Of a DNA stretch of 64,000 bases, positions 44,696-63,485 are shown piece by piece. This DNA comes from Paramagnetospirillum marisnigri (GTDB taxonomy: Bacteria; Pseudomonadota; Alphaproteobacteria; Rhodospirillales; Magnetospirillaceae), in NCBI RefSeq assembly GCF_001650715.1, contig NZ_LWQT01000055.1, positions 1 to 64,000 of the forward strand, in the 5' to 3' direction. Position numbers and translations under genes: made by a program. Within the stretch, counting starts at the first letter, position 1, and each line of letters opens with the position of its first letter. The notes under the pieces were generated by a model, which worked only from the letters and a program-made list of their open reading frames with translations, searched no databases and was not told the DNA's origin.

Positions 44696-44706
44696 GAAAG
44701 CAAATC

Positions 44707-46440: not shown

Positions 46441-46458
46441 GATGGTCCTTTCAGAGAC

Positions 46459-46490: not shown

Positions 46491-46516
46491 GGGGAAAAGC
46501 TGAAATTCGCGTCGCG

Positions 46517-46816: not shown

Positions 46817-48541
46817 TTACTTCATCCCGTAAAGGGTTGCCGACGCCGTCAGGATGTTCTGACCACAGCCGATCCTCAGAGCATCCACGACACTGGTGTC
46901 ATAGACATACCCAGACGCCCAGAACGACCGCATGGCGTTGTAGAAGAATACCGACCCGTGATGTTCCACCCTGGTATAGACGGTGGGGTTTCTCGCGTTC
47001 AGGATAAGGATGTGACCGCAGTACCCGCCCTCTCCGGCAGTGCTGGTGGCAAGGGACTGACATAACCGGATCGTCCAATTGTTGTGGTCCGCCCCCGATC
47101 CCCAGTACGAGGTCGATCCATCCTCGTTCACGCACCCCCCGGTCCAGTCATAGATATTGCTGAACCAGGACGCACCACTCTCCTTGCGGAATTCAAGCTC
47201 TGGCGTCACGTTCCCGGCGACGTCGGGCCTAAGATTCTCGACAATCACCAGATATGTCCGATACGCATCGGACAACCCCGTGAACTGGATATACGCCGCG
47301 GGTGATGAAATCGTGGCGGTGGATATTTTCACCAGATCGCCCCCACCACCCGCCGGAAAGGCGATGGTCCCGGCACCGTCGTTGTAGCTGCCGCCCGCCG
47401 CCGCCACCATGGCGCCCACCACGTCCTGGACGCCTTCGGTCCAGTCGGTGATGGCGGTGCTGGCATGGCCGTGGCTGGCGGCGGCGGCGGCGAGATTGCT
47501 CCGAGCCGTCGCCGGATTGGCAACGTCGGCCAAGTTGTTGGCGGCGGCGAGAGTGCCGTTGCCCGAGACATAGGCCGCCACCCAGGCGGTGCCGGTCCAC
47601 AACTGCATGGCTCCGGCGGTGGTGTCGAAATAGAGCGCGCCACCCACCAGGGCGTTGCCGTCGTTGTCCAGCGTGGGGGCGCTGGCCTTGGCGCCGAGAT
47701 AACGGTCATCGAAGCTGTCATAGGCGGCGAGGGTGGCGTCACGCGCCGCCTCGGCCGCCATCTGGGCAACCTGGGCGGCGTTGCGATAGGCGAGCGCGTT
47801 GGTCTCGGAGCCCGAGGCGGCCAGGGCGGACGCGGCGGCGGCAGCCCTGTCAGCAGCCACCAGGGCCTTGTCCGCCGCGACAACGGCCCTATCGGCGGCG
47901 ACCTGGGCGGCATCGGCCGTCACCGCGATCCAGTCGGCATGGGTCGCGGCCGCGTCGGAAGCGACGGAGGTCTGGGCCGCGCTGGCCTCGGAGGCCTTGG
48001 CGGTGGCGATGGCGGCGGACGCCTGGGCGGCGGCGGCGCTGGCGGCGGCGGTGTCGAGATCGCTGGCGGAATTCTCCAGCCCGCTGCCATCGGCATTCCA
48101 TTTCAGGGCACGACCGCCCACCGGCTCGGGCAGGGTGAGGTCGGCGGCATCGGTGCTGAGAAAGGAGCGCCGCACGGCGCGCGAGGCTTCCTCGGCCACC
48201 TGCTGCAGGGCGGCGGTCTGGTAGTCCAACTCGTCGTTCAGTTCCTTGGCGCGGATCAGGCCATCATGGAGATAGTCGGTGTCGCGCCGGATGCTCAGGC
48301 GACGGCGCAGGGTGACGAAACCTCCGGCGGCGGGCGGCTGGGCGAACAGCACGCTTCCCCCGCCCGAGACTCCGGCACTCGACACCGCATAGACGGCAGG
48401 CAGTTGCAGTTCGTCATCGACCCAGACCTCCAGGTCCTGGGGCTTGAAGATGGGAAAGGGATAGGTGAAGGCGGCCTGGACGCCGTTGGCCACGTATTGG
48501 ACGCGCGGCACGGCATCACCTACCTGGATATGGTCAGCCAT
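46817..48541 (-). CDS. Phage tail fibre protein, first copy
   Basis: 574 residues with the T7 gp17-type N-terminus (VANGVQAAFTYPFPIFKPQ, DLEVWVDDELQLP, VTLRRRLSIRRDTDYL) that attaches fibres to the tail. A long Ala/Ser/Thr-rich helical region (about residues 155-275) is the coiled-coil stalk, followed by a collar-like GGALYFDTTAGAMQLWTGTAWVA segment and a unique C-terminal receptor-binding part from about 400 on. AAGGAG lies 8 bases before the ATG. It lies between gp12-like and the small chaperone-like gene. Confidence 0.85.
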   Translation of the reverse strand: MADHIQVGDAVPRVQYVANGVQAAFTYPFPIFKPQDLEVWVDDELQLPAVYAVSSAGVSGGGSVLFAQPPAAGGFVTLRRRLSIRRDTDYLHDGLIRAKELNDELDYQTAALQQVAEEASRAVRRSFLSTDAADLTLPEPVGGRALKWNADGSGLENSASDLDTAAASAAAAQASAAIATAKASEASAAQTSVASDAAATHADWIAVTADAAQVAADRAVVAADKALVAADRAAAAASALAASGSETNALAYRNAAQVAQMAAEAARDATLAAYDSFDDRYLGAKASAPTLDNDGNALVGGALYFDTTAGAMQLWTGTAWVAAYVSGNGTLAAANNLADVANPATARSNLAAAAASHGHASTAITDWTEGVQDVVGAMVAAAGGSYNDGAGTIAFPAGGGGDLVKISTATISSPAAYIQFTGLSDAYRTYLVIVENLRPDVAGNVTPELEFRKESGASWFSNIYDWTGGCVNEDGSTSYWGSGADHNNWTIRLCQSLATSTAGEGGYCGHILILNARNPTVYTRVEHHGSVFFYNAMRSFWASGYVYDTSVVDALRIGCGQNILTASATLYGMK

Positions 48542-48571
48542 GTTGGGCTCCTTGAAACGGATTTGAAAAAG

Positions 48572-50476: not shown

Positions 50477-51042
50477 GAGCGCACCTCCACCAGCGGGAAA
50501 TCGGCGATGGCGGCGGGGGTCTGCTGCTGGCCGTCGATCAGCTTGGCGCGGCGGAACTCGTCCTCAGCCAGGCGGAACAGGAACTGGGCCCGGGTGGTGC
50601 TTTCGGTGACCGGAATGCAGAACTCGGCGGTCAGGCGCGCCATCAGCATCTGGTCGAAAAAGGGCGGAAAGCCGCTTTCATCGGGGCGAAAGACATAGGT
50701 CAGCACCACCTCCTCGGCATCGCACAACAGCCGGTCCTGGTGGATGCGATAGGTCAGGCCCTGGCCGCGCCCGCCCGGTCCCGCCGACAGCACCCGCAGG
50801 AAATCGGCGGGCAGTTGGAAGGCATTGGCGAAATCGGCCACCGGCGCCGCCGCCAGCCGGGGCAGGCTGCCCTGGGCGGTGGCGAAGCTCCAGGGATGGG
50901 ACGACAGCACCGCGTCGCGCAGCGGCGGATACAGCAGGGCGGCCACCTCGGATTCGGCGGTGCCGTCCTCGAAGCTGGCGATGGGACTGGCGCCGAGCCG
51001 CAGCAGGGCGCGCGAGCACAAGGCGATGGCGGACAGGGCCAT
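50473..51042 (-). CDS. Tail tubular protein A (gp11-like adaptor)
   Basis: 189 residues, the usual size for the T7 gp11-type adaptor that joins the portal ring to the nozzle. Family features: IALCSRALLRLGASPIASFEDGTAESEVAALLYPPLRDAVLSSHPWSFAT in outline, LPADFLRVLSAG and YRIHQDRLLCDAEEVVLTYVFRPDESGFPPFFDQMLMARLTAEF in outline. The ATG at 51042 was chosen for its AGGAGA site; an in-frame start eight codons earlier adds only a charged leader. Confidence 0.85.
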   Translation of the reverse strand: MALSAIALCSRALLRLGASPIASFEDGTAESEVAALLYPPLRDAVLSSHPWSFATAQGSLPRLAAAPVADFANAFQLPADFLRVLSAGPGGRGQGLTYRIHQDRLLCDAEEVVLTYVFRPDESGFPPFFDQMLMARLTAEFCIPVTESTTRAQFLFRLAEDEFRRAKLIDGQQQTPAAIADFPLVEVRS

Positions 51043-51073
51043 GGCGTTTCTCCTGGAATGGGACAATGGAATG

Positions 51074-51104
51074 AAAAAACCCGCCGGACCAAGGGTCGGG
51101 CGGG
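51074..51104 (-). terminator. Minus-strand terminator before the gp11-like gene
   Basis: Stem CCCGCC-G-GACC (51080-51090) / GGTC-G-GGCGGG (51094-51104), loop AAG, with six A on the plus strand (51074-51079). It follows the secreted-partner gene that ends at 51160. Confidence 0.75.
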
Positions 51105-51159
51105 CTGAACAGAATGCGTATCGGGTCGGGTTAGCTGGCGGAATTCGCCTGAACAGGGT

Positions 51160-51762
51160 TCATCGGTTCGGTGCCGCTGTCCCGTCCGGCCAGTTGTAAC
51201 GATCACCCAACGGGCACTCGACGCCATCGACCACCCAGCCGCGAGACTCTTTCTTCATCCGGTATCGGGCCGTCCAAGGGCCGGAGCGTTTCCAGGCGGC
51301 AAGGATGATGGCCGTGTCACCCGTACTATGTTCGGTGCGATACCAGTAACCATGGGGGGCCACATCCTGGGCGCAGTTGATCGGGCTTGATTCCAGCCCG
51401 CACATATCACCCTCGACATACTCGCCGCCACAATTCTGGACGACCAATTCGCGCTCAAAGGCCGCGACGGCATCGAGATAAGCTGAAGTGAAATGCCGAC
51501 CGAAGAGCTTGTGATGCAAGCGCCTGCCGCCTTTGTAATCAATGAGAAATTGGTGAAGTCGCGAATCTCCCAACGGAGGAGTGGCCTCCACTTTCAGCAG
51601 GGCATTCACTGCCCGCTCCGGCGACGAGTGGGGCCGATGGAACGTACTCGTCACCGAAGTCGCATCCTCCCCTAAAGACGGACTAGAGGCGAAGGGGGCC
51701 ACGAGCAGGCTAAGGAGTACGACGATAGATTTGATAGGCTGGCTTGTGCGTACGGTACCCAT
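51160..51762 (-). CDS. Secreted protein overlapping the amidase-like gene
   Basis: 200 residues. A hydrophobic signal peptide (IKSIVVLLSLLVAPFASSPSLG) is followed by a mature domain with SSPERAVNALLKVEATPP and YLDAVAAFERELV, paired cysteines (NCGGEYVEGDMCG, INCAQD) and a C-terminal WTARYRMKKESRGWVVDGVECP. The late pattern is like DUF3828-type periplasmic proteins, which I name only as a possibility. It starts at 51762 inside the 3' end of the amidase-like gene (53-base overlap), so the two are tightly coupled. A secreted inhibitor or immunity partner of that enzyme is one reading. Confidence 0.55.
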   Translation of the reverse strand: MGTVRTSQPIKSIVVLLSLLVAPFASSPSLGEDATSVTSTFHRPHSSPERAVNALLKVEATPPLGDSRLHQFLIDYKGGRRLHHKLFGRHFTSAYLDAVAAFERELVVQNCGGEYVEGDMCGLESSPINCAQDVAPHGYWYRTEHSTGDTAIILAAWKRSGPWTARYRMKKESRGWVVDGVECPLGDRYNWPDGTAAPNR

Positions 51763-52306
51763 CGCCACCCCACATATCCCTTTGCTTATGATCCGAAACC
51801 CAACCGCCTCCATCGTGCATAGCGATGTGGCCGTGTTTGCTGCCGCCTGGATGGGGTTGAATAACGATGACATCACCCTTTTGTGGTTTATACCCGTCCT
51901 TGGAAACAGGTTCAAATCCAGCCTTCTCCAGTGAAGGTCCCATATCCTTGGCTGATTCGACGCCTGCACCGACCTTGAGACCGCCCGCAGCAAGGGCTGA
52001 TTTCACGAATCTTGCACAATATTTGGTTGGGCCGAGAGCTGCCTGACTTCTCAATTTTTCGACGGCCTTGTCCGCATCGAACGGTGCCTTGCCTCCACTG
52101 CCGCCGCTTCGTTCGTGCGCCGCGACCTCCACCACCTGACCGTTGACGGTGCGGCTGTAGCCGCGAACCTGGATGCTTCCGCTGGCGACCTTGGTTCCGT
52201 CAGAGGCATAGATGTGCCCATCGGCACCCTGGTGGCGTTCCAGCGAATCGGTGTGATCGCCGCGCAGGCTCTGGTCGGGGTAGAGGGTGGCGAAGCCCCG
52301 CGACAC
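51710..52306 (-). CDS. Amidase/CHAP-like cell-wall hydrolase, C-terminal part
   Basis: 198 residues from a GTG at 52306 with a poor ribosome site. The C-terminal ~110 residues have a cysteine-histidine hydrolase look: KYCARFVKSALAAGGL (candidate nucleophile Cys), KPQKGDVIVIQPHPGG, KHGHIAMHDGGGWVSDH (candidate His) and MWGGDGYRTH. This is the order of NlpC/CHAP or Tae-type peptidoglycan amidases. The N-terminal GFATLYPD continues in sense the small frame just upstream (52308-52409): deleting one base at 52310 fuses them. It probably is the main part of one virion-associated lytic enzyme. Confidence 0.6.
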   Translation of the reverse strand: MSRGFATLYPDQSLRGDHTDSLERHQGADGHIYASDGTKVASGSIQVRGYSRTVNGQVVEVAAHERSGGSGGKAPFDADKAVEKLRSQAALGPTKYCARFVKSALAAGGLKVGAGVESAKDMGPSLEKAGFEPVSKDGYKPQKGDVIVIQPHPGGSKHGHIAMHDGGGWVSDHKQRDMWGGDGYRTHKPAYQIYRRTP

Positions 52307-52307
52307 C

Positions 52308-52409
52308 TTAGTCGCGCCACGACGGGTAGTCCGGGTGACGCGGGTTGGAGTAACGGGGGTCGGCCATGGCCTTCTTCAGGTTGGCCTCGGTGAGGGGAAG
52401 GGTGGACAT
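52308..52409 (-). CDS. N-terminal fragment of the amidase-like protein, out of frame
   Basis: 33 codons from the ATG at 52409 (GGAGA upstream) to TAA at 52308-52310: MSTLPLTEANLKKAM then ADPRYSNPRHPDYPSWRD. The next gene begins one base later in another frame with VSRGFATLYP. If base 52310 is skipped the two read as one chain, DPRY-x14-VSRGF-x2-LYP, which parallels the C-terminus of the scaffold-like protein (DPRY-x11-VSAGF-x2-LYG). The fragment is therefore part of the amidase gene, separated by a frameshift, error or recoding site. Confidence 0.6.
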   Translation of the reverse strand: MSTLPLTEANLKKAMADPRYSNPRHPDYPSWRD

Positions 52410-52560
52410 GGACGGTCTCCGGTCGAGAAAGCCAATCCCCGCCCCTCGCGCGCAGAAGGAGGGGCACGCGCCAGGGGCGGGGCGGCGGCCAGCGCTCCAC
52501 GGGCAAGCAGGGGGGAACCCGCCCGGATCGCCGGGGCCGAGGGAATTTCGCGGTCAAGGA

Positions 52561-52592
52561 CATCCTCCCCCGGCCGCAACCGGGGGAGGATG
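52561..52592. terminator. Hairpin between the capsid genes and the amidase gene
   Basis: Perfect 13-base stem CATCCTCCCCCGG (52561-52573) / 52580-52592 with a 6-base loop. It lies 11 bases after the small virion gene's stop on the minus strand. No T run. The rest of 52410-52602 is GC-rich with no gene I can support. Confidence 0.55.
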
Positions 52593-52602
52593 GAGACAGA
52601 TG

Positions 52603-52872
52603 CTACCGGCTGTCGGCGGCGCCGATCTGGGTCAGGTCGTTGACATCGACCACGCCGCCGGAATTGGCGGAGACCAGGAACAGGCCGCCCTTCATGGTTC
52701 CGGCGGTATCCACATTGGCGACGATGATGTCACCGACCCGCAGCATGGTGGAGGCGGCGTTGAAATAGCCCTCCGTATCCATGGTATTGGCGACATCGGC
52801 GGTGGTGTAGTGCCACAGGGTGAAGCCGTTGGCATAGGCCAGCACGCTGAGATCCTTGGACAGATAGGCCAT
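52603..52872 (-). CDS. Small virion-associated protein next to the capsid gene
   Basis: 89 residues: MAYLSKDLSVLAYANGFTLWHY then FNAASTMLRVGDIIVANVDTAGTMKGGLFLVSANSGGVVDVNDLT in outline, mostly beta with alternating hydrophobic residues. Small genes with this type of sequence commonly follow the capsid gene of alphaproteobacterial podoviruses and probably encode a head decoration or fibre protein. It starts 10 bases after the capsid stop. I cannot name it more closely. Confidence 0.6.
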   Translation of the reverse strand: MAYLSKDLSVLAYANGFTLWHYTTADVANTMDTEGYFNAASTMLRVGDIIVANVDTAGTMKGGLFLVSANSGGVVDVNDLTQIGAADSR

Positions 52873-52882
52873 GGGGGGCTCC

Positions 52883-53701
52883 TTAGGGTTCGAGGCAGCG
52901 CAGGCTGACGATGCCCACGGGGTCGATCAGGGCGCTGCCCTGGGACATGAAGTTGTTGATGAACCAGGCGGCGCGATCGCCCTGATAGGTGATCTCGGTC
53001 TTGACCTCGGCGCCGCAGGCATGGCCGATGGCGGTCTTGTGGTACCAGTAGCAATAGCGGGTGGTGCCGCTCTTGGTCAGGCCGGAGTGGGGCATCCACA
53101 GGGTGCCCAGCCACTTCTTGGCCTGGGTGCCCTTCCACGGCAGGTCATCGGCGCCGACATAGTCGGAGCTGGAGAATTCTTCGATATCCATCAGCTCGGA
53201 CCACTGCTTCCAGCCGACCACGGCATAACGCTCGCCGTCATCGGGGACATCGGCCTCGCCCAGCTTCTCGAAGGCCTCCAGCACCTTGGCCTTGGTCAGG
53301 CCGGAGGACCCGTCCAGGGCGTAGTTGGTGGACTTGTCCAGTTCGGCGATGATCAGTTCGTCGGTCTTGCGGCCCAGGGCATAGGCCCCGGCATTGGTCA
53401 GGACCTGGCGCTCGTTGTGCTCGATCTTCAGGTCGTCCAGCTTGTCCAGCCAGTCACCGGCGTAATAGTCGTAAAGCTGGCATTCGACGGTGCCGTGGTC
53501 GACATTCATCACCGGCACCTTGCCGTGGCGGGCCTTGGTGGCGGCGGAACCCTTGCCGACCTTCTGGAACACCGCGATGGCGCCCTTGACGTCGTTGCGC
53601 ACGCGGACGGTGTTGCGCAGCTTGGTGCCCATGCGCTGATAGGCGGCATGGACCTCGTGGCCATACTGCTTCGAGTAGGCGTTGATCACACTCGCGGACA
53701 T
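52883..53701 (-). CDS. Phage major capsid protein
   Basis: 272 residues. The N-terminus SVINAYSKQYGHEVHAAYQRMGTKLRNTVRVR and a mid part LYDYYAGDWLDKLDDLKIEHNERQVLTNAGAYALGRKTDELIIAEL in outline are typical of HK97-fold capsid proteins of podoviruses in alphaproteobacteria; the C-terminus has ITYQGDRAAWFINNFMSQGSALIDP. I chose the ATG at 53701, preceded by AAGGGAACAAAAC, rather than a much longer upstream start. Its place after portal and scaffold genes and before gp11/gp12-like genes is the T7-type order, but host and lysozyme genes intervene on the upstream side. Confidence 0.78.
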   Translation of the reverse strand: MSASVINAYSKQYGHEVHAAYQRMGTKLRNTVRVRNDVKGAIAVFQKVGKGSAATKARHGKVPVMNVDHGTVECQLYDYYAGDWLDKLDDLKIEHNERQVLTNAGAYALGRKTDELIIAELDKSTNYALDGSSGLTKAKVLEAFEKLGEADVPDDGERYAVVGWKQWSELMDIEEFSSSDYVGADDLPWKGTQAKKWLGTLWMPHSGLTKSGTTRYCYWYHKTAIGHACGAEVKTEITYQGDRAAWFINNFMSQGSALIDPVGIVSLRCLEP

Positions 53702-54034
53702 GTTTTGTTCCCTTGCTGTCTGGGGGAATGGGAGGATGGCGCCCGGACATGGGTTATGAGCCGCCGACGGCCGTGACGGTTGCTCGCCGAAGCCCGACGC
53801 GCGAATGCCCATCGGGCCAAGCCTGGAAGGGCCGGTTGTCCGTGGGCGCAATTGTGGTGTTGATAGGAATTAAGATACACTATCCCCTGCTATTGTTAAT
53901 ATATTCCTTTATAAATTTTTGAACTATTCCCGATCGCCGACCCTGGCCAAATTCCCTCTGTCCCCCATCATGAAAATCGTTATTATCTGGCCGATTCGAT
54001 TGCTGCATGCGGATTTCGAGGGACAAGGACGTCC
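53702..54034. promoter_or_regulatory. Gene-free divergent region with AT-rich island
   Basis: A 333-base gap between the capsid gene (minus) and the signalling/iron operon (plus). Bases 53870-53930 are strongly AT-rich (TTGTTAATATATTC, then TTTATAAATTTTTG) and are the best place for the operon promoter, though no clean -35/-10 pair stands out. A stretch ending GTTATTATC (53979-53987) matches a Fur box at about 12 of 19 positions, which is weak. The left half (53702-53860) is GC-rich and has nothing I recognise. Confidence 0.4.
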
Positions 54035-54763
54035 ATGAACCAGGTGTCGACTCCGGTACGCGAACGGACACCGCGCACCGACCGTATCGAGGCTCGGGCC
54101 AACGGATTGCTGAGCGATTGCCGCCGGGCCTTCCACGCCTTTGGCGAGCTGGATGAGCTGGCCGAGAACCTGCGGATTTTATCCCTGAATGCCGAACTGG
54201 CCGCCGGACGGGCGGGCGACAAGGGCCGGGCGGTGCGGGCGCTGACCCAATACACCCGCGAACTGGTCAACCGGCTGGCCCAGATCCAGGGCGAGATGAA
54301 TTCCCTGCGCGGCCGCACCTTCGCCCTGTCCTCGACCATCCTGCGGGGCCTCAGCCAGATGTCGCTGTTCGAGCGGGCCTGCGGCCTGATCGACGACCAT
54401 GATCATGACGCCCGCGCCAAATCGGCGGCCGACCACGCCTTCCACGACATCATGCGCATGCTGGTGGACACCCTGAGTGACATGGCCAATTGCGTGGGCG
54501 AGTTGGCCCGGCGGGCCCATGGCGTCGAGGAGGTGGTCAGCCAGTCGGATTCCATCGCCACCAACATCGCCATCGAGGCCGCCGCCGCCGGGGTGCATGA
54601 AAAGGAATTCCGCACGGTGTCGGATACGATGCGGCATTACGTGGACGATCTGCGCAAGATGATCGACGAGGCTTCCGATGCCGTCCGCCGCGCGTCCGAA
54701 AAGGGCGAATCGTTGCGCAGGCTCGGCATGGACAGCCTCGGCGAACTCGGATTCAACGGCTAA
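54035..54763 (+). CDS. Cytoplasmic chemotaxis-type signalling protein
   Basis: 242 residues, all-helical, with no membrane segment or HAMP. Two stretches resemble chemoreceptor tips: NLRILSLNAELAAGRAGDKGRAVRAL in outline and SIATNIAIEAAAAGVHEKEFRTVSDTMRHYVDDL in outline. It may scaffold CheA/CheW or act as a soluble receptor subunit. The next gene in the operon is an ODP-like protein, and ODP is known in spirochaetes as an oxygen sensor that works with chemotaxis proteins. That pairing suggests an oxygen-linked signalling role; no che kinase is in view. Confidence 0.7.
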   Translation: MNQVSTPVRERTPRTDRIEARANGLLSDCRRAFHAFGELDELAENLRILSLNAELAAGRAGDKGRAVRALTQYTRELVNRLAQIQGEMNSLRGRTFALSSTILRGLSQMSLFERACGLIDDHDHDARAKSAADHAFHDIMRMLVDTLSDMANCVGELARRAHGVEEVVSQSDSIATNIAIEAAAAGVHEKEFRTVSDTMRHYVDDLRKMIDEASDAVRRASEKGESLRRLGMDSLGELGFNG

Positions 54764-54780
54764 CGGCTAGCGAGCGAAAC

Positions 54781-55539
54781 ATGAAATGCGTCACCCTGTT
54801 CCGCCAGGACGATCATAGCTGGCAGGCTTTCGGCCAGGATCGGGACAAGCCGGACAATGTCATCGACACCAACCAGTACATGATCCGCGCGGGCGGATCG
54901 GCCATCCTGCTCGATCCCGGCGGAATGGAGGTGTTCCCGGCCATGCTGGCGGCGCTGACCCGCGAAATCCCGGTCGACGAGATCAAGGCGCTGTTCCTGT
55001 CGCACCAGGACCCGGATATCGGCTCGTCGCTGCCGCTGTGGCGCCGGGTCTGCCGCCCCGACGTCAAGATCTACCTGTCCTGGCTATGGGCCGGATTCAC
55101 CGCCCATTTCGACCGCGACGCCACCTTCACCACCATTCCCGACGAAGGCATGGAGATTTCCCTGTCCCATGACGTGAGGCTGCGCTTCATTCCGGCGCAC
55201 TACCTGCACTCCTCGGGAAATTTCAACGTCTACGACCCCAAGGCCCGTATCTTGTTCTCCGGCGACATGGGGGCCGCCCTGGTCCCCGCCGACCGGGCCA
55301 ATGGAACCATGTTCGTCAGCGATTTCGCCGGCCACATCCAGTACATGGACGGCTTCCACCGCCGCTGGCTGGGATCGACCCGAGCCCGCGATGCCTGGGT
55401 GGCCCAGGTGTCCAAGCTGGATATCGACATGCTGGCGCCGCAGCACGGCCTGATCTTCAAGGGCGATGACGTCAAGCGCTTCATCGACTGGATCGCCGGG
55501 CTCGAGATCGGCAGCGGCGTCGCTTCCATGAACCGATGA
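54781..55539 (+). CDS. ODP-like diiron metallo-beta-lactamase-fold protein
   Basis: 252 residues. The metal ligands follow the flavodiiron/ODP spacing: H75-x-D77-x-D79 (LSHQDPDIG), H143 (AHYLHSSGNF), D162 (SGDMGA) and H222 (APQHG); the second ligand is Asp instead of the usual Glu. There is no flavodoxin domain, so it is not a complete NO/oxygen reductase and fits an oxygen-binding sensor. It is 17 bases after the chemotaxis-type gene, and its stop overlaps the iron permease start (ATGA), so the sensor and transporter are co-translated. The ligand is inferred from the family. Confidence 0.8.
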   Translation: MKCVTLFRQDDHSWQAFGQDRDKPDNVIDTNQYMIRAGGSAILLDPGGMEVFPAMLAALTREIPVDEIKALFLSHQDPDIGSSLPLWRRVCRPDVKIYLSWLWAGFTAHFDRDATFTTIPDEGMEISLSHDVRLRFIPAHYLHSSGNFNVYDPKARILFSGDMGAALVPADRANGTMFVSDFAGHIQYMDGFHRRWLGSTRARDAWVAQVSKLDIDMLAPQHGLIFKGDDVKRFIDWIAGLEIGSGVASMNR

Positions 55540-57194
55540 GGTCCCCGGCGACGCCCACCGGCCGGGGCTGGTCGGTGGCGGTCTTCGTGCTGGTGGCCGT
55601 GGTCTCCCTTCCCGTCCTGGCGGTGGCCTCCAAGCTGCTGGTGCCATCGGCCGAGGTGTGGAGTCACCTGGCCGGAACCGTGCTCGCCACCTATGTCGCC
55701 AATTCCCTGTGGCTGATGCTGGGGGTCGGGGTCTGTGTCGCCTTTGGCGGTATCGGCACCGCCTGGCTGGTGACCATGTGCCGCTTCCCCGGCAGCCGCA
55801 CCCTGGAATGGGCGCTGCTGCTGCCCATGGCCATGCCCGCCTATGTGGTGGCCTATACCTATACCGGCCTGCTGGACTATGCCGGGCCGGTGCAGTCGGG
55901 CCTGCGCGTCCTGTTCGGCTGGCACACCGCCCGCGACTACTGGTTCCCCGAGATCCGCAGCCTGGGCGGCGCCATCTGGGTGATGTCCATGGTGCTGTAC
56001 CCCTATGTCACCATGCTGGCGCGGGCCGCCTTCCTGGAGCAGTCGGTCTGCGTGCTGGAGGCCAGCCGCACCCTGGGCTGCCGCCCCTGGCGGGCCTTCC
56101 TGACGGTGGCGCTGCCGCTGGCGCGCCCGGCGGTGGCGGCAGGGGTGGCGCTGGCGCTGATGGAGACCCTCAACGATTTCGGCACCGTCCACTATTTCGC
56201 GGTGGATACCTTCACCACCGGCATCTACCGCACCTGGCTGGGCCTGGGGCAACCCGCCGTGGCGGCGCAGTTGGGGGCGGTGCTGATGCTGTTCGTCCTC
56301 GCCCTGGTGCTGGCCGAGCGCATCTCGCGCGGCGGCCGACGCTATCACCACACCACCGGCCGCTACCGGCGCCTGCCGCAGCTTCGTCTGACCGGGTTCG
56401 CCGCCCTGGCGGCGCAGGTGTTCTGCCTGGCGCCGATCCTGCTGGGCTTTCTGATTCCCGCCGGGGTTCTGGGCCTGTGGGCCATCGAGGGCGGCGCCGA
56501 GCGGGCGCTGGCGGGCGAGTTCCTGCCCCTGGCCCGCAACAGCGTCATCCTGGCGGCAGTGGCCGGATTGGCGGCGGTGACGGTGGCGCTGGTGCTGGCC
56601 TATGCCCTGCGTCTGCATCCGCGCCCGGCGGTGAAAAGCGGCGTGCGGCTGGCCTCGCTGGGCTATGCCATACCCGGTTCGGTCATCGCGGTGGGTACCC
56701 TGGTCCCCTTGACCTCGGTGGATCGCGTCATCGCCGACATGGCGCAAAGCACCCTGGGCTGGAGCGTCGGGCTGCTGCTGACCGGCTCCATCGCCGGGCT
56801 GGTCTATGCCTATGTGGTCCGCTTTCTGGCGGTGGCGGTCAACGGCGTCGAGGCCAGCCTGGGCAAGGTCACCCCCAGCATGGAGGCCGCCGCCCGCACC
56901 CTGGGCGAAGGCAGCCTCGGCACCTTGCGCCGGGTCCATCTGCCCATCATCCGGGGCAGCCTGCTATCGGCGGGGCTGCTGGTCTTCGTCGACGTGATGA
57001 AGGAGCTTCCCGCCACCTTGATCATGCGACCGTTCAATTTCGACACCCTGGCGACGCGCACCTTCACCCTGGCCTCGGACGAGCGCCTTGCCGATGCCGG
57101 GGCGCCCGCCCTGGCCATCGTGCTGGCGGGCCTGCTGCCGGTGATGCTGCTCAGCCGGACCATCGCCCGTTCCCGCCCCGGAGGCAGCCCATGA
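55536..57194 (+). CDS. Iron(III) ABC transporter permease
   Basis: 552 residues with about 12 membrane helices in two homologous halves, each carrying an ABC-coupling EAA-type loop (EASRTLGCRPWRAFLTVALPLARPA near residue 181, EAAARTLGEGSLGTLRRVHLPIIRGS near 448). This two-in-one permease is the FbpB/SfuB type for ferric iron. Start overlaps the ODP-like gene, stop overlaps the ATPase gene, both by ATGA, so the three are tightly coupled. Its substrate-binding protein is probably the one encoded at 60186. Confidence 0.88.
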   Translation: MRSPATPTGRGWSVAVFVLVAVVSLPVLAVASKLLVPSAEVWSHLAGTVLATYVANSLWLMLGVGVCVAFGGIGTAWLVTMCRFPGSRTLEWALLLPMAMPAYVVAYTYTGLLDYAGPVQSGLRVLFGWHTARDYWFPEIRSLGGAIWVMSMVLYPYVTMLARAAFLEQSVCVLEASRTLGCRPWRAFLTVALPLARPAVAAGVALALMETLNDFGTVHYFAVDTFTTGIYRTWLGLGQPAVAAQLGAVLMLFVLALVLAERISRGGRRYHHTTGRYRRLPQLRLTGFAALAAQVFCLAPILLGFLIPAGVLGLWAIEGGAERALAGEFLPLARNSVILAAVAGLAAVTVALVLAYALRLHPRPAVKSGVRLASLGYAIPGSVIAVGTLVPLTSVDRVIADMAQSTLGWSVGLLLTGSIAGLVYAYVVRFLAVAVNGVEASLGKVTPSMEAAARTLGEGSLGTLRRVHLPIIRGSLLSAGLLVFVDVMKELPATLIMRPFNFDTLATRTFTLASDERLADAGAPALAIVLAGLLPVMLLSRTIARSRPGGSP

Positions 57195-58240
57195 CCGACG
57201 GTTTGGTTCTCGACTCCATCGGCCACGACTATGACGGCGTGCCGGTGGTCAAGGACGTCTCGCTGCAGGTCCGACCGGGCGAACTGGTCTGCCTGCTAGG
57301 GCCGTCGGGCTGCGGCAAGACCACCACGCTGCGGGTCGCCGCCGGGCTGGAGGCGCCACGCCTGGGCCGAGTCATCCTCAACGGCCAGCTGGTGTCGGGC
57401 GGCGGTGTCCATCTGCCGCCGGAATTGCGCCATGTGGGATTCCTGTTCCAGGACTATGCCCTGTTCCCCCATCTCGACGTGCTGGGCAACGTCACCTTCG
57501 GCTTGCGCTCGCTGTCCGATGCCGAGCGCGAGGCCCGCGCCCGCCAGATGCTGGCCCAGGTGGGCATGGAGGACTACGCCCGGGCCTGGCCGCATCAGCT
57601 GTCGGGCGGCCAGCAGCAGCGGGTCGCCCTGGCCCGCGCCCTGGCGCCCAGTCCCAGCCTGATGCTGCTGGACGAGCCCTTTTCCGGATTGGACAAGCGC
57701 CTGCGCGACCAGGTGCGCGACGAGACCCTGCACGTGCTGAAATCCACCCGCGTCGCCACCCTGATGGTCACCCACGACCCCGAGGAAGCCATGTTCATGG
57801 CCGATCGCATCGCGGTGATGCGGGGCGGCGAGATCGTGCAGATGGCGGCACCCGAGGAACTCTACAACCAGCCGCGCAATGCCTTCGTCGCCTCGTTCTT
57901 CGGTGAGGTCAATCTGTTGGAGGGCGTGGTGCGCCAGGGCAATGTCGCCACGGCATTGGGAAACTTTCCGGCGCCGGGGCTGGGCGAGGGAACCAGGGCC
58001 GAGGTCCTGATCCGGCCCGAGGGGCTGAGTCTGTCCCCGGCGCCCGAGGGCGAGGCGGTGGTGCTGACCGCGCGCCCATTGGGGCGGTCAAGCCTGGTCC
58101 ATCTGAGGGTCGAGCGCGCGGGTATGGCCCCCTGCCACCTCCATTCCCGCCTGCGAAGCGGCACCGCGCCCGCCGAGGAACAGCGCGTGACCATCGCGGT
58201 GGACGCCACCAAGGCGTTCGTCTATCCGATTCCCGAATAG
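57191..58240 (+). CDS. Iron(III) ABC transporter ATP-binding protein
   Basis: 349 residues: Walker A GPSGCGKTTT (about residues 37-46), Q-loop LFQDYALFPHLDV, signature LSGGQQQR, Walker B LMLLDEPFSGLD, switch His in MVTHDPEEA. The C-terminal ~110 residues form a TOBE-type regulatory domain, as in FbpC/FutC and PotA. It energises the adjacent permease and follows it with a four-base overlap. A lysozyme-like phage gene converges on it 31 bases later, where one would expect further iron genes. Confidence 0.9.
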   Translation: MTDGLVLDSIGHDYDGVPVVKDVSLQVRPGELVCLLGPSGCGKTTTLRVAAGLEAPRLGRVILNGQLVSGGGVHLPPELRHVGFLFQDYALFPHLDVLGNVTFGLRSLSDAEREARARQMLAQVGMEDYARAWPHQLSGGQQQRVALARALAPSPSLMLLDEPFSGLDKRLRDQVRDETLHVLKSTRVATLMVTHDPEEAMFMADRIAVMRGGEIVQMAAPEELYNQPRNAFVASFFGEVNLLEGVVRQGNVATALGNFPAPGLGEGTRAEVLIRPEGLSLSPAPEGEAVVLTARPLGRSSLVHLRVERAGMAPCHLHSRLRSGTAPAEEQRVTIAVDATKAFVYPIPE

Positions 58241-58271
58241 AAGGCGACGGACCGGCGACGGCACCGGGTGA

Positions 58272-59375
58272 TCACAACAACCCCAGGCCGGAGCCGAAGC
58301 TGCGGGTGAAGTCCTCGGGGTCGGTCTGGCCCATGGGGGCATCCTGGGGGCCGGGGCCACCGCCGCCATCACCTTCGTCGGCGCCGTCGGCGCCACCGTC
58401 CTTGGGTTGAGGCCATTGGGAGGCGGTGGGCCAGGGGGCTGGCTGACCTTCGAACCGGGGCAGCGGGTTGGCCTTCAACCGCTCGATCAGGCTGTCGGTG
58501 CTCATGGGGTCCTTCGTGTCCGGCGACGGCTGGCCTTGCTCGAACGCCTTGGGATAGGCCTTGCGGTAAGCCTTGGCCTCCGTGGAATTTTCGACCGCCT
58601 TCCACTTGGCCTGTTCCTCGGGCTTCCAGCCGGATGGACTGCCGGTGGCCAGGTCGGCCTCGGCCCGGCGGCGGGTGGCGATACCCCGGCTTTCATCGGC
58701 ATTGGAGTCGTAGAGGATTTCCTTGCGCATGGTGGCGGGATCATTGTCCAGCATGGCCCCCGTCGCCTTGGGGGCGGGGACGCCGTTGAAGGCCATGGAG
58801 GTAAGCGCGATCTCCTGCCGCGTGCCTTTCAGGGACTCGATATAGGCATCGGTCTGCTCCTTGGACCAGCCGCGTTTGTCGGCCTGCTGGCGAACGGTGT
58901 CGAAGGCGCGCTCGCGATGCTCGGACCAAGCGGTTTCCGCCTGTTTGGCGATCCGCTCGTCGCTCAAGGAAAAGCCGAACTTGTTCTTGTCGGCGGTTTC
59001 GGCGCCAGGCCTGTACTCGGGGATGAGCTTCTGGGCCTCTCGTTTTTTTGCATCCGGATCGAGCTTCGGATCATTCAGCTTGCCCACGGTGTCGTTGAGC
59101 AGTTTGGTTTCCGCCGGGGCGAAGCGATAAGGCTTGGTGAGGTCACCGCTGATCTCGCCGCCAATGGCGCTCAGATCGCGCAAAATGAATCTACCGCTGC
59201 CATTACGCACTGCCAGGGCGACGCCGCTGCCCATGGTGGGAATGCCGTAGTCGTCGGTATAGATGCGGGGCACGGCGCCCTCAAAGGTCTTCAAATGGTT
59301 GGCGACCGCGCTGGTGTAATCCTGTTGCGACAGCTTGGTCGGGGGCATGGGGGAGCGGCGGATGATCTCGGGCAT
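58272..59375 (-). CDS. GH24-type phage lysozyme with a long C-terminal extension
   Basis: 367 residues. The catalytic triad spacing of T4-type lysozymes is exact: E32-x8-D41-x5-T47 in TFEGAVPRIYTDDYGIPTMGSG. A helical middle part includes RQEIALTSMAFNGVPA, the region of the second lysozyme lobe. The last ~110 residues are Pro/Gly-rich and disordered (QPKDGGADGADEGDGGGGPGPQ), ending SFGSGLGLL. I chose the ATG at 59375 with GGAGAA upstream. It would cut peptidoglycan during entry or release. A decayed copy of its first part lies at 40735-41009. Confidence 0.75.
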   Translation of the reverse strand: MPEIIRRSPMPPTKLSQQDYTSAVANHLKTFEGAVPRIYTDDYGIPTMGSGVALAVRNGSGRFILRDLSAIGGEISGDLTKPYRFAPAETKLLNDTVGKLNDPKLDPDAKKREAQKLIPEYRPGAETADKNKFGFSLSDERIAKQAETAWSEHRERAFDTVRQQADKRGWSKEQTDAYIESLKGTRQEIALTSMAFNGVPAPKATGAMLDNDPATMRKEILYDSNADESRGIATRRRAEADLATGSPSGWKPEEQAKWKAVENSTEAKAYRKAYPKAFEQGQPSPDTKDPMSTDSLIERLKANPLPRFEGQPAPWPTASQWPQPKDGGADGADEGDGGGGPGPQDAPMGQTDPEDFTRSFGSGLGLL

Positions 59376-59395
59376 GATGGTTCTCCGGGTTGCAA

Positions 59396-59427
59396 AGAAA
59401 AAGGCCCACTCCGGGGGGGAGCGGGCC
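59396..59427 (-). terminator. Minus-strand terminator upstream of the lysozyme gene
   Basis: Stem GGCCC-A-CTCC (59403-59412) / GGAG-C-GGGCC (59418-59427) with AAAGAAAAA on the plus strand before it. Same layout, including the A/C mismatch, as at 41024-41052. It ends the transcript of the secreted-protein gene at 59458. Confidence 0.7.
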
Positions 59428-59457
59428 TGGGCGGCGAAATGCTTGAATGCCATGCGG

Positions 59458-59940
59458 CTATTTGACACTGAGCATAAGGGCGTGAGTTAGAAAATATTCT
59501 ATTGAATCAATTTTAGGGAACGCCCCTATTAGCAAGTAGCATTTGTCATCTGGATAGGGCGTCTTCATGTAGAAATTTGCATGAATCTCAATATATTGCC
59601 TATCCTGATCGATGCCTTCAAAATAATTGGGCGTCTGTTCATAACGGTAGACACGCTTGAATGTGCGCCTTTTCCTCCCCTCGGTCACAGGCTGGCGCTT
59701 GCCGTTCCAAATAAGAACGGCTTTGTGCTCGTCAATCCGGGCTTCCATCAGTTCCCTGCGGCGGCCCTTGGGGGGATCAAGCTCTTCGAAATTACCGAAC
59801 CGGTCGGCCACATGGGTGGTGCGCCAGGTGCCGTAGACCGGCGGGCATTTCTTGTCCGTCGATGGCGCGTCCTCGGCCAGTGCGATGGGCGCAGCCATCA
59901 GAGCGGCCAGCAGAATGGGCAGAATACGCGTTGGCCTCAT
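59458..59940 (-). CDS. Secreted protein next to the lysozyme gene
   Basis: 160 residues with a Sec signal peptide (MRPTRILPILLAALMAAPIALA). The mature part begins EDAPSTDKKCPPVYGTWRTTHVADRF and includes VLIWNGKRQPVTEGRKRRTFKRVYRYEQTPNYFEG in outline, with two cysteines. No family recognised. It lies directly upstream of the lysozyme gene on the same strand, separated by a terminator. Like the secreted protein beside the amidase gene, it could be a periplasmic partner or inhibitor; this is only inferred from position. Confidence 0.5.
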   Translation of the reverse strand: MRPTRILPILLAALMAAPIALAEDAPSTDKKCPPVYGTWRTTHVADRFGNFEELDPPKGRRRELMEARIDEHKAVLIWNGKRQPVTEGRKRRTFKRVYRYEQTPNYFEGIDQDRQYIEIHANFYMKTPYPDDKCYLLIGAFPKIDSIEYFLTHALMLSVK

Positions 59941-60185
59941 GGACGATCATCCCACGCAATAGTCGCCCCATGGTGCCGTTGTCGCCCACTACTCGCAATG
60001 GTCTCGAATGACAACGCCCGGAGCCAGGAAAAATGGGGGCAGAGCGGATGATTGCCGGTGGGAACACCCCTTTGGCCATTGATGGCGGGGCGGTGGCGTT
60101 CGAGATTCACCCTTTACACCCAAAACAAATGTGACCATACTGCCGCAGATGCAAATCATTAGCATTATCTCTCTGGGGCGCGCAT
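59941..60185. promoter_or_regulatory. Promoter region of the iron-binding protein with Fur-box-like site
   Basis: 245-base gap between divergent genes. GCAAATCATTAGCATTATC (60151-60169) matches the classic 19-base Fur box at 14 positions and contains the palindromic pair ATGC/GCAT. It lies 16-34 bases upstream of the ATG at 60186, where a repressor would block initiation. Confidence 0.6.
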
Positions 60186-61208
60186 ATGGGTAAGATCCTC
60201 CATCGGGCCATTCTGGCCATCTCCGTCACCATCCTGGCTGTCGGCACCGCGTCGGCGCAGGAGGTCAATGTCTATACCGCCCGCAAGGATCATCTGGTCA
60301 AGCCGGTGCTCGACGGCTTCACCAAGAAGACGGGGATCAAGGTCAACCTGTTGCCCGCCGGTGAGGACCAGTTGCTGGAACGCCTGAAGAGCGAGGGCAT
60401 GAACAGCCCCGCCGATGTGCTGATCACCACCGATGTCGCCCATCTGCACAAGGCCCGCGTCGCGGGCGTGCTGCAGCCGATCTCGTCCAAGGTGATCGAC
60501 GCCAATATTCCGGCCAAGTATCGCGATCCCCAGGGCTATTGGTACGGCCTGTCGGCCCGCGCCCGGGTGCTGTTCTACGCCAAGGACCGGGTCAAGCCCT
60601 CGGAGCTGTCCAGCTACGAGGATCTGGCCGATCCCAAATGGAAGGGCCGCATCTGCGTCCGCTCGTCGTCCTCCACCTATAACCAGTCGCTGCTGGCCCA
60701 TCTGATAGCGGTGATGGGGCCGGACAAGGCCGAAACCTGGGCCAAGGGCGTGGTCGACAACATGGCGCGCAAGCCCCAGGGCGGCGACCGAGACCAGATC
60801 ACCGCCGTGGCCGCCGGGCAGTGCGACGTCGCCATCGCCAACACCTATTACTACGGCAATCTGCAGACCTCGACCAAGGCCGAGGAGCGCGACGCCGCCG
60901 CCAAGGTCGGCATCTTCTTTCCCGGCCAGCAGGGTCGCGGCGCCCATATGAACGTGGCCGGAGCCGGGGTCACCGCCTCGGCCAAGCACAAGGCGGAGGC
61001 GATCAAGCTGATCGAGTTCCTGTCCGGTCCCGAGGCGCAGCAGATCTTCGCCGAGGCCAACAGCGAATACCCGGTCCTGGCCTCGGCCAAGGCCTCGGAG
61101 ATCGTGGCGGGCTGGGGCCCGTTCAAGGCCGAGGAGATCAATGTCGCCATGCTGGGCGAGAACAATCCGGTGGCGGTGCGCATCTTCGACCGCGTCGGCT
61201 GGCGCTGA
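60186..61208 (+). CDS. Iron(III) ABC transporter substrate-binding protein
   Basis: Periplasmic binding protein of 340 residues. A signal peptide (HRAILAISVTILAVGTASA, cleavage near residue 25) is followed by EVNVYTARKDHLVKPVLDGFTKKTGIKVNLLPAGEDQLLERL in outline, a typical FbpA/FutA start. The iron-binding tyrosine cluster Y221-Y222-Y223 lies in ANTYYYGN. It has its own promoter with a Fur-box-like site. The permease and ATPase genes are 2 kb upstream, on the same strand but separated by two minus-strand genes. Confidence 0.92.
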   Translation: MGKILHRAILAISVTILAVGTASAQEVNVYTARKDHLVKPVLDGFTKKTGIKVNLLPAGEDQLLERLKSEGMNSPADVLITTDVAHLHKARVAGVLQPISSKVIDANIPAKYRDPQGYWYGLSARARVLFYAKDRVKPSELSSYEDLADPKWKGRICVRSSSSTYNQSLLAHLIAVMGPDKAETWAKGVVDNMARKPQGGDRDQITAVAAGQCDVAIANTYYYGNLQTSTKAEERDAAAKVGIFFPGQQGRGAHMNVAGAGVTASAKHKAEAIKLIEFLSGPEAQQIFAEANSEYPVLASAKASEIVAGWGPFKAEEINVAMLGENNPVAVRIFDRVGWR

Positions 61209-61261: not shown

Positions 61262-61942
61262 TCAGCCCTCGCCGTAGAGACGGCCGAACCCGGCCGAGAC
61301 CTTGGCGATGAAGGCCGGGTCGCGGGTCTTCCAGTAGCGCGGATCGCGGATCATCTTCTTCAGCTCCTCCTCGCTCGGGGTTTCTTCCGAGGCCGGGGCG
61401 GCGCGACCCAGGCTGGGCTCGCCGCTGGCCATCAACCGATGCAGCGCCTTGACGCCGTCGGGCGAAGCCACCAGGGCCTGATAGGCCTCGGGCGGCAGGT
61501 TCTTCTTGCCCCAGGCCGCCAGTTGCGGCGCCAACTGGCGCCACCGGCTCTCGCCGCCGAAATGGCGGGCCAGTTCCGCCAGATGGGCGGCATGGTCATC
61601 CTGGCCCCCCGCCTGATCCAGCAGCGGCAGCAGGCAATCATGGGCCAGATCATAGACCAGTTGGGCCTGCTCCTGGCTGAAGCCCGCCGCGTGCAGGCGC
61701 TTGTTCACCTCCATGCTGGAGGCCAGCTTGGGGTGACGATGGCTGATCTTGTAGCCATCGGGTCCCCCGGGCAGGGCGGCGGCGGCGCCACGGGGCGCGG
61801 CCGAGGCATGGCGCTCCAGGTCGCGATAGGCGCGCAACAGCGCCTCGACGCGGATTTCGCCCTTGGCCGGGTCCCAGAACTTCTCGGGGACATTGGTCGG
61901 GCGGGCTTGGGTGGCGGGCTCGAGGGAATCTTCGGAATGCAT
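61262..61942 (-). CDS. Capsid scaffold-like protein
   Basis: 226 residues, hydrophilic, helical and acidic. It begins LEPATQARPTNVPEKFWDPAKGEIRVEALLRAYRDLE in outline, the usual start of podoviral capsid assembly proteins (NVPEKFWD-x-GEIRVEALL), and has a long helical middle. The C-terminus carries a compact motif DPRYWKTRDPAF then VSAGFGRLYGEG that would be the capsid-contacting part, by analogy with T7 gp9 and P22 scaffolds. The same kind of motif opens the amidase-like protein at 52409. It lies directly after the portal gene, as expected. Confidence 0.75.
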   Translation of the reverse strand: MHSEDSLEPATQARPTNVPEKFWDPAKGEIRVEALLRAYRDLERHASAAPRGAAAALPGGPDGYKISHRHPKLASSMEVNKRLHAAGFSQEQAQLVYDLAHDCLLPLLDQAGGQDDHAAHLAELARHFGGESRWRQLAPQLAAWGKKNLPPEAYQALVASPDGVKALHRLMASGEPSLGRAAPASEETPSEEELKKMIRDPRYWKTRDPAFIAKVSAGFGRLYGEG

Positions 61943-61964: not shown

Positions 61965-63485
61965 TCAGGAAAGCTTGGACGCTTCGGGACGCATCAGCGC
62001 GCCCGGAACGTTGAAGGTGCGGCCCAGCCAGCGGGCGGCGGCGGCGGGGTCGATGGTGGCCACCGCCTCGGGTCCCAACTGGCCCAGGGCCGACAGCCAG
62101 GTCAGCATATTGCGCGCATCGCGCTGGGCCTGGGTCTGGGCCAGGGGCGAGCGGTATTGCAGGTCCACCGACCGGCCATCCACCACCAGATCGGGGATTT
62201 CACCCCGGCGGCGCAGGATGTGGACGGCGCGCATGACCAGCGGCGTCAGCAGCTCGCTTTGCAGGCGGCCATAGGTGGCCCCCAGCAGCCGGACCATCTG
62301 GCTGGACCGCTCCAGAACCTCGGTGGCGGTCATTTTCGGTGCCTCCACCTGGCCCAGGCGGTCCACCATCAAGGCATGGCGGATGCGGGACCGCAGGTCG
62401 TCGAGCACCAGTTGCGAAGTGTCGAAGCGGCCGGGGGCGGTCAGAGGCTGCAACCCGGCCGAGCCCACCGCCTTGGGAATGATGGTGCCGGGAACCAGCT
62501 TGATATTGGCGGGGTTCAGCACCCCGTCGTCATCGGCCTGCCAGATGCCGGTCACCGCGATGGTGGCGTTCTTCAGCACCAGTTCCACCACCTTGTTGGC
62601 GGTCTTGATGTCGGGCAGCGCCTTCATCACCGGCGAGCGGCCATAGACCTCGCCCGGAGCCTTCAGCCAGCGGAAATTGATGAAGGGCGTCATCTCGAAC
62701 CGGCCGCTGGCCAGGACGGCGTTGTCATCGTCGTTTTCCAGCACGGCGGCATAGGCATAGCCATGCCCGGCAGGCACCACCGCCTCCACCACCCCGAAGC
62801 GCAGATCGGGGTCCTCGGCGGCGGCCTTGACCATCTCCTCGGGCGGATGGGCGCCGGGAAAGCGGCTGGCGAGACCGGCCCAGGTCAGCTCGCTGCGGCG
62901 GAAGGTGACATCGGGACGGCCTTCCGGCCCTTCCTCCATCACCACCTGGCCCAGGGGCACGGCGGTGAAGCGGAAGGCCGAGGCCTCGCCCGGCGGCGCC
63001 TCCTCGAACAGCAGCGAGGCGGTGCCGCCCGTGACCACGTCCAGATAGCACTGGTGCATTTCCACCGCGAAATTGGAGCGGTCGAAATGGGATTGCAGCA
63101 CCGCGCCGATGCGTTCCAGCGCCGGGGCGGCCCGCTCGCGCTCGGCTTCGCTCAGTTGCTCACCCGCTGTCAGGCCGAACCATTGCGCCCAGGGCGGCGT
63201 CAGTTCCGACAGCAGGCTGGCGGCCAACTGATCCACCGCGTCGGGAGCGGTGCCGTCGAACAGGCGGTCGGCCTTTTTTTCGCCGGGAATCCCCTGGTGC
63301 AGGATGGCGTCGCGCAGCGGCAAGGCGAAGTCATAGCATTCCTGCCAATGGGACTCCCACACGGCGCGGCGCTCCTTGGCCTTGTGATAGCGTCGCAGCA
63401 GGATCGAGGCATCATCCTCGTCGTCGCCCAATAGCTGTTCGCCACGGGCGGCCAGGGCCAGGGTTTCCGGGGAGGCTGCGCTCAT
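61965..63485 (-). CDS. Phage portal / head-to-tail connecting protein
   Basis: 506 residues, matching the T7 gp8-type head-tail connector family (about 500-550). Family features: LLRRYHKAKERRAVWESHWQECYDFALPLRD in outline, DRLFDGTAPDAVDQLAASLLSELTPPWAQWFGL in outline, FINFRWLKAPGEVYGRSPVMKALPDIKTANKV and VLERSSQMVRLLGATYGRLQSELLTPLV. The portal forms the DNA entry ring. I chose the ATG at 63485, which has GGGAG 7-10 bases upstream; the ATG two codons earlier is too close to that site. It starts 3 bases after the stop of the small upstream gene. Confidence 0.9.
   Translation of the reverse strand: MSAASPETLALAARGEQLLGDDEDDASILLRRYHKAKERRAVWESHWQECYDFALPLRDAILHQGIPGEKKADRLFDGTAPDAVDQLAASLLSELTPPWAQWFGLTAGEQLSEAERERAAPALERIGAVLQSHFDRSNFAVEMHQCYLDVVTGGTASLLFEEAPPGEASAFRFTAVPLGQVVMEEGPEGRPDVTFRRSELTWAGLASRFPGAHPPEEMVKAAAEDPDLRFGVVEAVVPAGHGYAYAAVLENDDDNAVLASGRFEMTPFINFRWLKAPGEVYGRSPVMKALPDIKTANKVVELVLKNATIAVTGIWQADDDGVLNPANIKLVPGTIIPKAVGSAGLQPLTAPGRFDTSQLVLDDLRSRIRHALMVDRLGQVEAPKMTATEVLERSSQMVRLLGATYGRLQSELLTPLVMRAVHILRRRGEIPDLVVDGRSVDLQYRSPLAQTQAQRDARNMLTWLSALGQLGPEAVATIDPAAAARWLGRTFNVPGALMRPEASKLS

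Follow-up and report, generated by a model that had tools for sequence, protein, structure and literature searches.

The DNA examined here is a 64,000-nucleotide stretch of contig NZ_LWQT01000055.1 from the alphaproteobacterium Paramagnetospirillum marisnigri (genome G000 among those compared below), referred to throughout as the window. It holds a cluster of podovirus-like head and tail genes on the minus strand, including those for a portal, or head-tail connector (61965–63485; PF12236, E 2.1e-150; phrog_332), a scaffolding protein of the T7 capsid assembly family (61262–61942; PF05396, E 7.4e-15, 56.2 bits against a curated cut-off of 27.1) and a major capsid protein (52883–53704; PF19821, E 3.6e-87; phrog_3437). 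The subject of this study is a short element, here called the tag, which ends the scaffolding protein and recurs at the start of an amidase-like effector encoded downstream of the capsid gene.

The scaffold tail and its copy on an effector

The C-terminus of the scaffold reads ...SEEELKKMIRDPRYWKTRDPAFIAKVSAGFGRLYGEG* (61265–61375, minus strand). This stretch, about residues 190–226, is the scaffold's copy of the tag, a predicted three-helix mini-domain that is also matched by a hidden Markov model (HMM) built from enzymes only. At the effector locus, 52277–52409 on the minus strand, we read ...LTEANLKKAMADPRYSNPRHPDYPSWRD* in one frame and VSRGFATLYPDQ... in another; the tag of the window effector thus stands in the present assembly as two pieces split by a frameshift. 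A first-pass annotation, made from the letters alone, had proposed a motif common to the scaffold C-terminus and a frameshifted amidase N-terminus. Both peptides are present as it described them, the second spread over two frames; in the homologue of genome G016 (locus L003) the tagged effector frame is unbroken. In L003, L007, L008 and L010 a tag-bearing enzyme N-terminus continues without a break into a longer protein. The common part is wider than first noted, starting about 10 residues ahead of DPRY, and the enzyme copies carry about 3 residues more than the scaffold before the last helix. An IMG/VR contig of 11.7 kb (L231) is identical to window 41959–53701 and so cannot separate a real frameshift from a sequencing error.

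Inside the window alone the evidence for similarity is modest, with one piece convincing and the other not: the first piece was equalled or exceeded by 1 of 5,000 shuffles, and the second by 803 of 5,000. Because the second piece was weak in these piecewise shuffles, we relied instead on whole-genome profile searches. Profile A1, an HMM of seven enzyme N-termini from five genomes with no scaffold among them, was run against a relatives set of 99 whole genomes, the window's own included, and gave 82 matches. Ten were effector pieces; of the 72 others, 48 fell on PF05396 scaffold C-termini and 24 elsewhere, so that a profile made from enzymes reached 48 of the 55 PF05396 places in these genomes. 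Single scaffold matches score poorly (E 8.8e-6 to 0.06 per genome); taken together, their number indicates that they are not chance.

A second tag profile, A2, made of 11 non-scaffold rows, was searched in 385 genomes of the class, with at most 18 candidates per genome scored, so that hits may be missing. It gave at least 87 matches in 67 genomes, 44 on PF05396 scaffolds and 43 off them by coordinates. The tag was present at 44 of the 50 PF05396 places over the cut-off, a count that leaves out a tagged neighbour in G473, which passes only jointly with its own neighbour. Sorting, done partly by eye and covering 42 of the 43 off-scaffold matches (G119 left out; G357 by coordinates only), assigned 63 of the 87 to scaffolds: 44 by Pfam, 18 by a position beside portal, capsid or tail genes, and one, at a contig start, by similarity. 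The remainder are four C-terminally tagged neighbours of scaffolds, 16 effector-like proteins, two probable scaffold fragments at contig starts (one of which was not read) and two ambiguous cases. From the other side, the C-terminal end of the PF05396 profile reaches the effector tags with sub-threshold scores (E 0.0013 to 0.02). Viral contigs supplied 41 complete C-termini of the scaffold family, 24 of which have a loose [DN]x[RK]Y version of the tag. The tag module had no match among plasmids and phage records; among viral contigs it matched only the window's own stretch, and the effector of L198 matched nothing there. Judged by these profile matches, the shared motif is a mini-domain of about 40 residues, three-helix by prediction, that ends scaffolds of the T7 gp9 type.

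Predictions by AlphaFold2 give this element a similar shape on both proteins. The scaffold (36 aligned rows; predicted TM-score (pTM) 0.41) has helices at residues 191–199, 201–206 and 209–223, with a predicted local distance difference test score (pLDDT) of 93–94 over 191–220 and 72 for the last six residues, and a linker ahead of the tag (179–185) falls below 50. The G016 effector (14 rows; pTM 0.55) has helices at 8–14, 18–21 and 28–42, with pLDDT 86–94 over residues 1–40 and then a linker below 50. As modelled in separate predictions, the two tags agree in the order of their elements, and both sit on a tether. Within the genus, the scaffold tag has a median pairwise identity of 0.82, against 0.58 for the rest of the scaffold (136 pairs). 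A fold search of the scaffold in BFVD gave seven matches at E ≤ 0.001, one of them named capsid assembly protein; its TM-scores were 0.2–0.3, and we set the fold match aside as weak support.

Two further observations concern the distribution of the tag. Short C-terminally tagged proteins directly follow the scaffold in G202, G396, G473 and G158 (L188:8916–9302, L190:9700–10047, L191:9556–9930 and L192:4378–4731; about 116–129 residues by frame length, with the same tag at the end), and the two of these four that were scanned had no PHROG match. Genome G044 (L123) holds a second, divergent T7-like cluster, whose scaffold matches the window scaffold at the C-terminal tag only.

Tagged toxin-like proteins and their neighbouring genes

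The rest of the window effector's tag, its linker and its catalytic domain occupy 51710–52306 on the minus strand. The catalytic part matches Tae3 (phmmer, E 8.5e-22 to 4hz9_A), and by Foldseek the G016 homologue reaches a TM-score (target) of 0.91 to the Tae3 fold. Identity as a CHAP lysin was considered and rejected, the Pfam CHAP match (8e-5) lying below its cut-off and Tae3 fitting far better. By sequence and fold comparison, then, the window amidase is a Tae3 antibacterial effector. The start of the next gene (51160–51762, minus strand) overlaps the effector's end; its product has a secretion-like N-terminus by eye, and its homologues adjoin Tae3 domains in L124, L129, L131 and L133. We regard it as a putative Tae3 immunity protein.

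Behind the tag in other loci stand a glucosaminidase domain (L008), Tae2 (L198; 6.5e-12 to 6win), Ntox44 (L199), DUF6973 (L201 and L136), SLT (L265), M23 (L269) and, in two proteins, a 'Cytotoxic' domain (L258 and L260), which we take to be of the colicin-E3 type. Many further tagged proteins had no family match, and the effector parts of L128 and L194 had no match in the PDB. Ten loci were examined for a possible immunity gene. Judged by position and by eye, the toxin is followed directly by a convincing candidate on the same strand in eight of them, and six of the next-gene products look secreted or membrane-anchored; in L196, L198 and L199 the next genes are two tandem, homologous-looking copies. 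A relation of the L125 next gene to Tgi2PP was rejected at E 0.028, below the cut-off.

Genome G078 has 11 tag matches, comprising the scaffold, a short protein adjacent to it and nine frames that are 285–752 residues long. Eight of these nine toxin-like tagged frames fall into two tag subfamilies with mostly different C-termini, a pattern that, to judge from the sequences, is the layout of polymorphic toxins. Taken over all the domains found behind it, the tag is best described as a general carrier domain for toxin-like proteins, often near the N-terminus. The first-pass annotation had suggested that the motif, if it binds capsid, would be a cargo tag loading a lytic enzyme into the head. The direction of that idea is supported, in that a conserved scaffold C-terminal mini-domain is fused to unrelated proteins; its lysis amidase is not, the cargoes being toxin-like proteins generally and the window enzyme an interbacterial effector of the Tae3 family, next to a putative immunity gene. 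As to a spread of the motif over unrelated non-virion proteins, its carriers off phage genes are toxin-like or of no assigned family, with no evident housekeeping protein in the loci read.

Several smaller features of the tagged loci deserve mention. A D[AGS]xG[RK] motif, mostly DATGR, directly follows the tag in 10 of 27 tagged proteins; it is seen at L118:9062–9262, in L196, L198, L199 and L201, and also in L271, and one guess is that it is a cleavage or release site. In G078 (L258–L265), the next genes of both Cytotoxic-domain proteins share an FCPWTG stretch. In G058 (L266), two more tagged proteins are encoded directly between the scaffold and capsid genes, and the one scanned has a PG_binding_3 match.

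Inheritance of the head genes and proposed loading of toxins into heads

Scaffold and capsid genes are each single-copy in 17 of 17 genomes of the genus (the window's own and 16 others), the capsid match being partial in G004, G007 and G012; among the 99 genomes searched, a scaffold was found in 50 and a capsid in 54. In the genus the two genes lie within 15 kb of each other in seven genomes, 33 kb to 1.47 Mb apart on one contig in four, and on different contigs of draft assemblies in six. Beside the portal gene, just outside the window (G000:C55:64664–65344), a regulator with an S24 peptidase domain and a helix-turn-helix match just below cut-off matches the phrog_4 repressor (4.7e-27). It is kept in 17 of 19 other fetched loci, one of them from another family, and the two loci that lack it start, at a contig start, within 0.8 kb of the portal gene. 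This CI/LexA-like protein is likely to be the switch of the cluster. Past it, an enoyl-ACP reductase follows in 10 of the 19 loci and GTP cyclohydrolase I in 9.

Six structural genes (6 to 17 sequences each) have median ratios of nonsynonymous to synonymous polymorphism (pN/pS) of 0.22 to 0.51. The nearest match to the integrase family PF00589, the only recombinase family searched, is at 229 kb on the contig. Portal, capsid and terminase had no match at 60% identity or more among phage records; those nearest to the window's capsid and portal proteins are an unverified faecal clone of 5 kb (MT838907) and Pelagibacter phage Hodr. From their distribution and setting, the head genes appear to belong to a domesticated podovirus that is passed on vertically and kept for the host, resembling a gene transfer agent (GTA) more than an ordinary prophage. 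BaGTA and other GTAs (PMC9662315, PMC6899734) likewise have head genes that are fixed, co-inherited with the host and partly spread over loci; the present set differs in its T7-like portal, scaffold and tail genes, its own CI/LexA-type repressor and its toxin-like cargo.

Scaffold tails of P22 and T7 bind the interior of the shell. For T7, PMC7196576 assigns a V-shaped helix pair near the open vertex to scaffold contacting the portal, and PMC8131759 describes the loading of cargo fused to the P22 scaffold. By analogy with this behaviour, a toxin that bears its own copy of the tail would be expected to end up in the procapsid. We propose, with a probability of roughly 0.6, that the tag mimics the scaffold tail and loads toxins into domesticated podovirus heads for delivery to rivals. 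In this reading, the self-folding scaffold tail of a domesticated podovirus of Magnetospirillum-type and other alphaproteobacteria has been copied onto antibacterial toxins. During head assembly the toxin's tag would substitute for the scaffold C-terminus, either along the inside of the capsid lattice or at the portal; such binding, like packaging and delivery, is inferred. The toxin would be enclosed in the head and could later pass by way of the short tail into a rival, while the immunity protein encoded beside the toxin would protect sister cells. A broader idea, possible rather than probable, is a new class of weapon between bacteria, in which the podovirus shell is inherited as a chromosomal locus across Magnetospirillum-type and other alphaproteobacteria and serves as a syringe for a changing set of toxins, each tagged with the scaffold tail; it may also carry DNA, as a GTA delivering genes together with toxins.

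This proposal is consistent with the co-occurrence of tagged effectors and head genes. Carriers have a scaffold more often than other genomes, both in the class (6/9 against 43/376, p = 2e-4) and among the relatives (10/12 against 40/87, p = 0.015; with all carriers finally known, 13/17 against 37/82, p = 0.017), the test among relatives sharing genomes with the making of the profile. In 14 genomes tested, mostly carriers, a capsid was found in 10 and a portal in 11; G161 (68% complete) has the portal only.

Other results weigh against it. The window effector is frameshifted, and its counterparts in G003 and G004 seem to be split or decayed. Six of the 50 PF05396 places in the class lack the tag, the best-scoring classical ones (G346 and G356) among them, and Tae3 domains occur with no detected tag in G030, G038 and G052. 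In G078 the tag matches of the nine frames are weak (E 2e-6 to 3e-4), and eight are partial (positions 13–45 or 16–46 of 47). As to immunity, the putative Tae3 immunity protein had no match among PDB chains, Tai3 included; none of ten putative immunity proteins scanned passed a Pfam cut-off; L128 and L130 have no convincing next gene; and the next genes of tagged loci examined later, G078 among them, are mixed and were left unscored. In G016 some 2.3 Mb separate the effector from the capsid gene, and tagged proteins occur with no PF19821 or PF12236 match in G057 (99% complete), G401 (94%) and G085 (81%), as do tag matches with no PF05396 or capsid match in G071 and G073. Finally, 12 of the 16 same-genus relatives have the head cluster and no clear tagged effector. 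The effectors are therefore accessory, and any particle that is made probably has some role even when these cargoes are missing.

The same five genomes without detected capsid genes (G057, G071, G073, G085 and G401), and the frequent distance of tagged toxins from head genes, would suit phage defence or hitchhiking, in which a chromosomal tagged toxin binds or poisons the procapsid of an invading related phage, or rides in its head. We find this unlikely: head genes are enriched in carriers, and the pairing of wall-acting toxins with secretion-like partners suggests that the toxins act in the periplasm of other cells. A virion-associated lysin is similarly doubtful. In that case the tag would load a wall enzyme that aids DNA entry or release, with no killing between bacteria. 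Many tagged proteins are indeed peptidoglycan hydrolases (Tae3, Tae2, glucosaminidase, SLT, M23), and the window copy sits between capsid and tail genes; yet Tae2 and Tae3 are effector families of the type VI secretion system (T6SS), the tagged proteins are accessory and dispersed, they have immunity-like partners, and they include toxins of other kinds (the two Cytotoxic proteins and Ntox44).

Recombination debris, that is, scaffold ends fused by chance and now decaying without function, would account for the frameshifts, splits or truncations seen in the copies of the window, G003 and G004, but is very improbable in view of the intact long frames in which many unrelated toxin domains share this tag, and of the recurrence of the DATGR-type motif right after it. 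Least probable is an adaptor for another secretion route, such as the T6SS or an extracellular contractile injection system (eCIS), that shares the fold by coincidence: Tae2 and Tae3 domains are typical T6SS cargo, but scaffold C-termini are matched by the tag in one genome after another, and of 20 tag-bearing genomes 19, G000 included, have no gene for the T6SS sheath protein VipB, G202 being the exception (eCIS and other routes were not searched for).

Loading of toxins through a scaffold tail, as we propose it, can be set beside several known systems. The T4 capsid targeting sequence is a short N-terminal tag that sends internal proteins into the head; the present tag resembles it as an N-terminal, putatively head-directing element. 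T6SS effectors of the Tae3 and Tae2 families (4hz9/4hzb, 6win) have the same catalytic domains and the same order of toxin and putative immunity gene, and differ in that here a scaffold-type tag is present and the sheath gene is missing in 19 of the 20 tag-bearing genomes. In MuF toxins (PMC5576092, PMC11699363, PMC9503650), a head-protein domain, proposed to be capsid-targeted, stands ahead of polymorphic toxins with immunity genes. The likeness extends to polymorphic C-terminal toxins, immunity genes (putative here) alongside and an N-terminal phage-head domain for which, in MuF, capsid targeting has been proposed; the difference is that here the domain is a scaffold C-terminal tail and the host element a fixed, domesticated podovirus. 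No Pfam MuF match was found among 25 tag-locus proteins scanned (one a fragment without the tag), so the system would be MuF-like in its working and not a MuF member. In P22 virus-like particles, as described in PMC8131759, cargo also enters a phage shell through scaffold fusion; those fusions are engineered, and here the tail is seemingly natural and minimal.

Among the papers listed in an open-access literature search that was only partly targeted, none dealt with toxins bearing a scaffold tag or with a Magnetospirillum GTA of podovirus type, and the string 'podovi' does not occur in the available text of PMC7860042, which treats the prophages of M. gryphiswaldense. If the proposal holds, the tag would be a second head-targeting domain for phage-borne toxins, unrelated to MuF, and a natural counterpart to cargo loading by P22 scaffold fusion. 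Delivery of Tae-type effectors by bacteria that lack a T6SS would then have an explanation, and the retention of the podovirus head cluster in every genome of the genus examined a possible reason. The purpose of fixed phage clusters would become directly testable in Magnetospirillum, with the tag as a handle and any protein bearing it a candidate cargo.

Remaining genes of the head cluster

The other phage genes of the cluster, all on the minus strand, are those for a small conserved protein after the capsid gene (52603–52872; phrog_18004, 2.5e-19), tail tubular A-like (50473–51066; phrog_394, 4.2e-46) and B-like (48572–50476; phrog_376, 1e-143) proteins, two tail-fibre-like proteins (46817–48541, phrog_1640 and phrog_38058; 44707–46440, phrog_1640), the terminase large subunit (42850–44334; phrog_38, 3.4e-82) and a holin-like protein (41959–42522; phrog_1544 of unknown function, 4.9e-39, and the holin family phrog_3427, 4e-7). 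The tail-fibre-like genes are in tandem (44707–48541), and their N-terminal regions match the same tail family, phrog_1640.

The scaffold gene lies between portal and capsid, contiguously, in L057 and in other relatives' loci; in the window an insert of about 7.5 kb parts it from the capsid gene. Here a block of host-type genes (53983–61208) sits within the head cluster. Two genes on the plus strand (54035–55539) encode an MCPsignal-like protein and a protein with the ODP beta-lactamase fold; this pair adjoins the scaffold in 13 of 16 same-genus loci, six of which have the capsid gene on the opposite side. Plus-strand genes for an ABC transporter and a substrate-binding protein follow (55536–61208), and the permease and substrate-binding genes had no match in the 16 same-genus loci fetched. 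Also inside the ABC span are a gene on the minus strand at 59458–59940 and a lysozyme-like gene (58272–59468, minus strand; Phage_lysozyme at 0.042, below cut-off), a relative of which (L151, 38%) occurs in the same cluster of G014.
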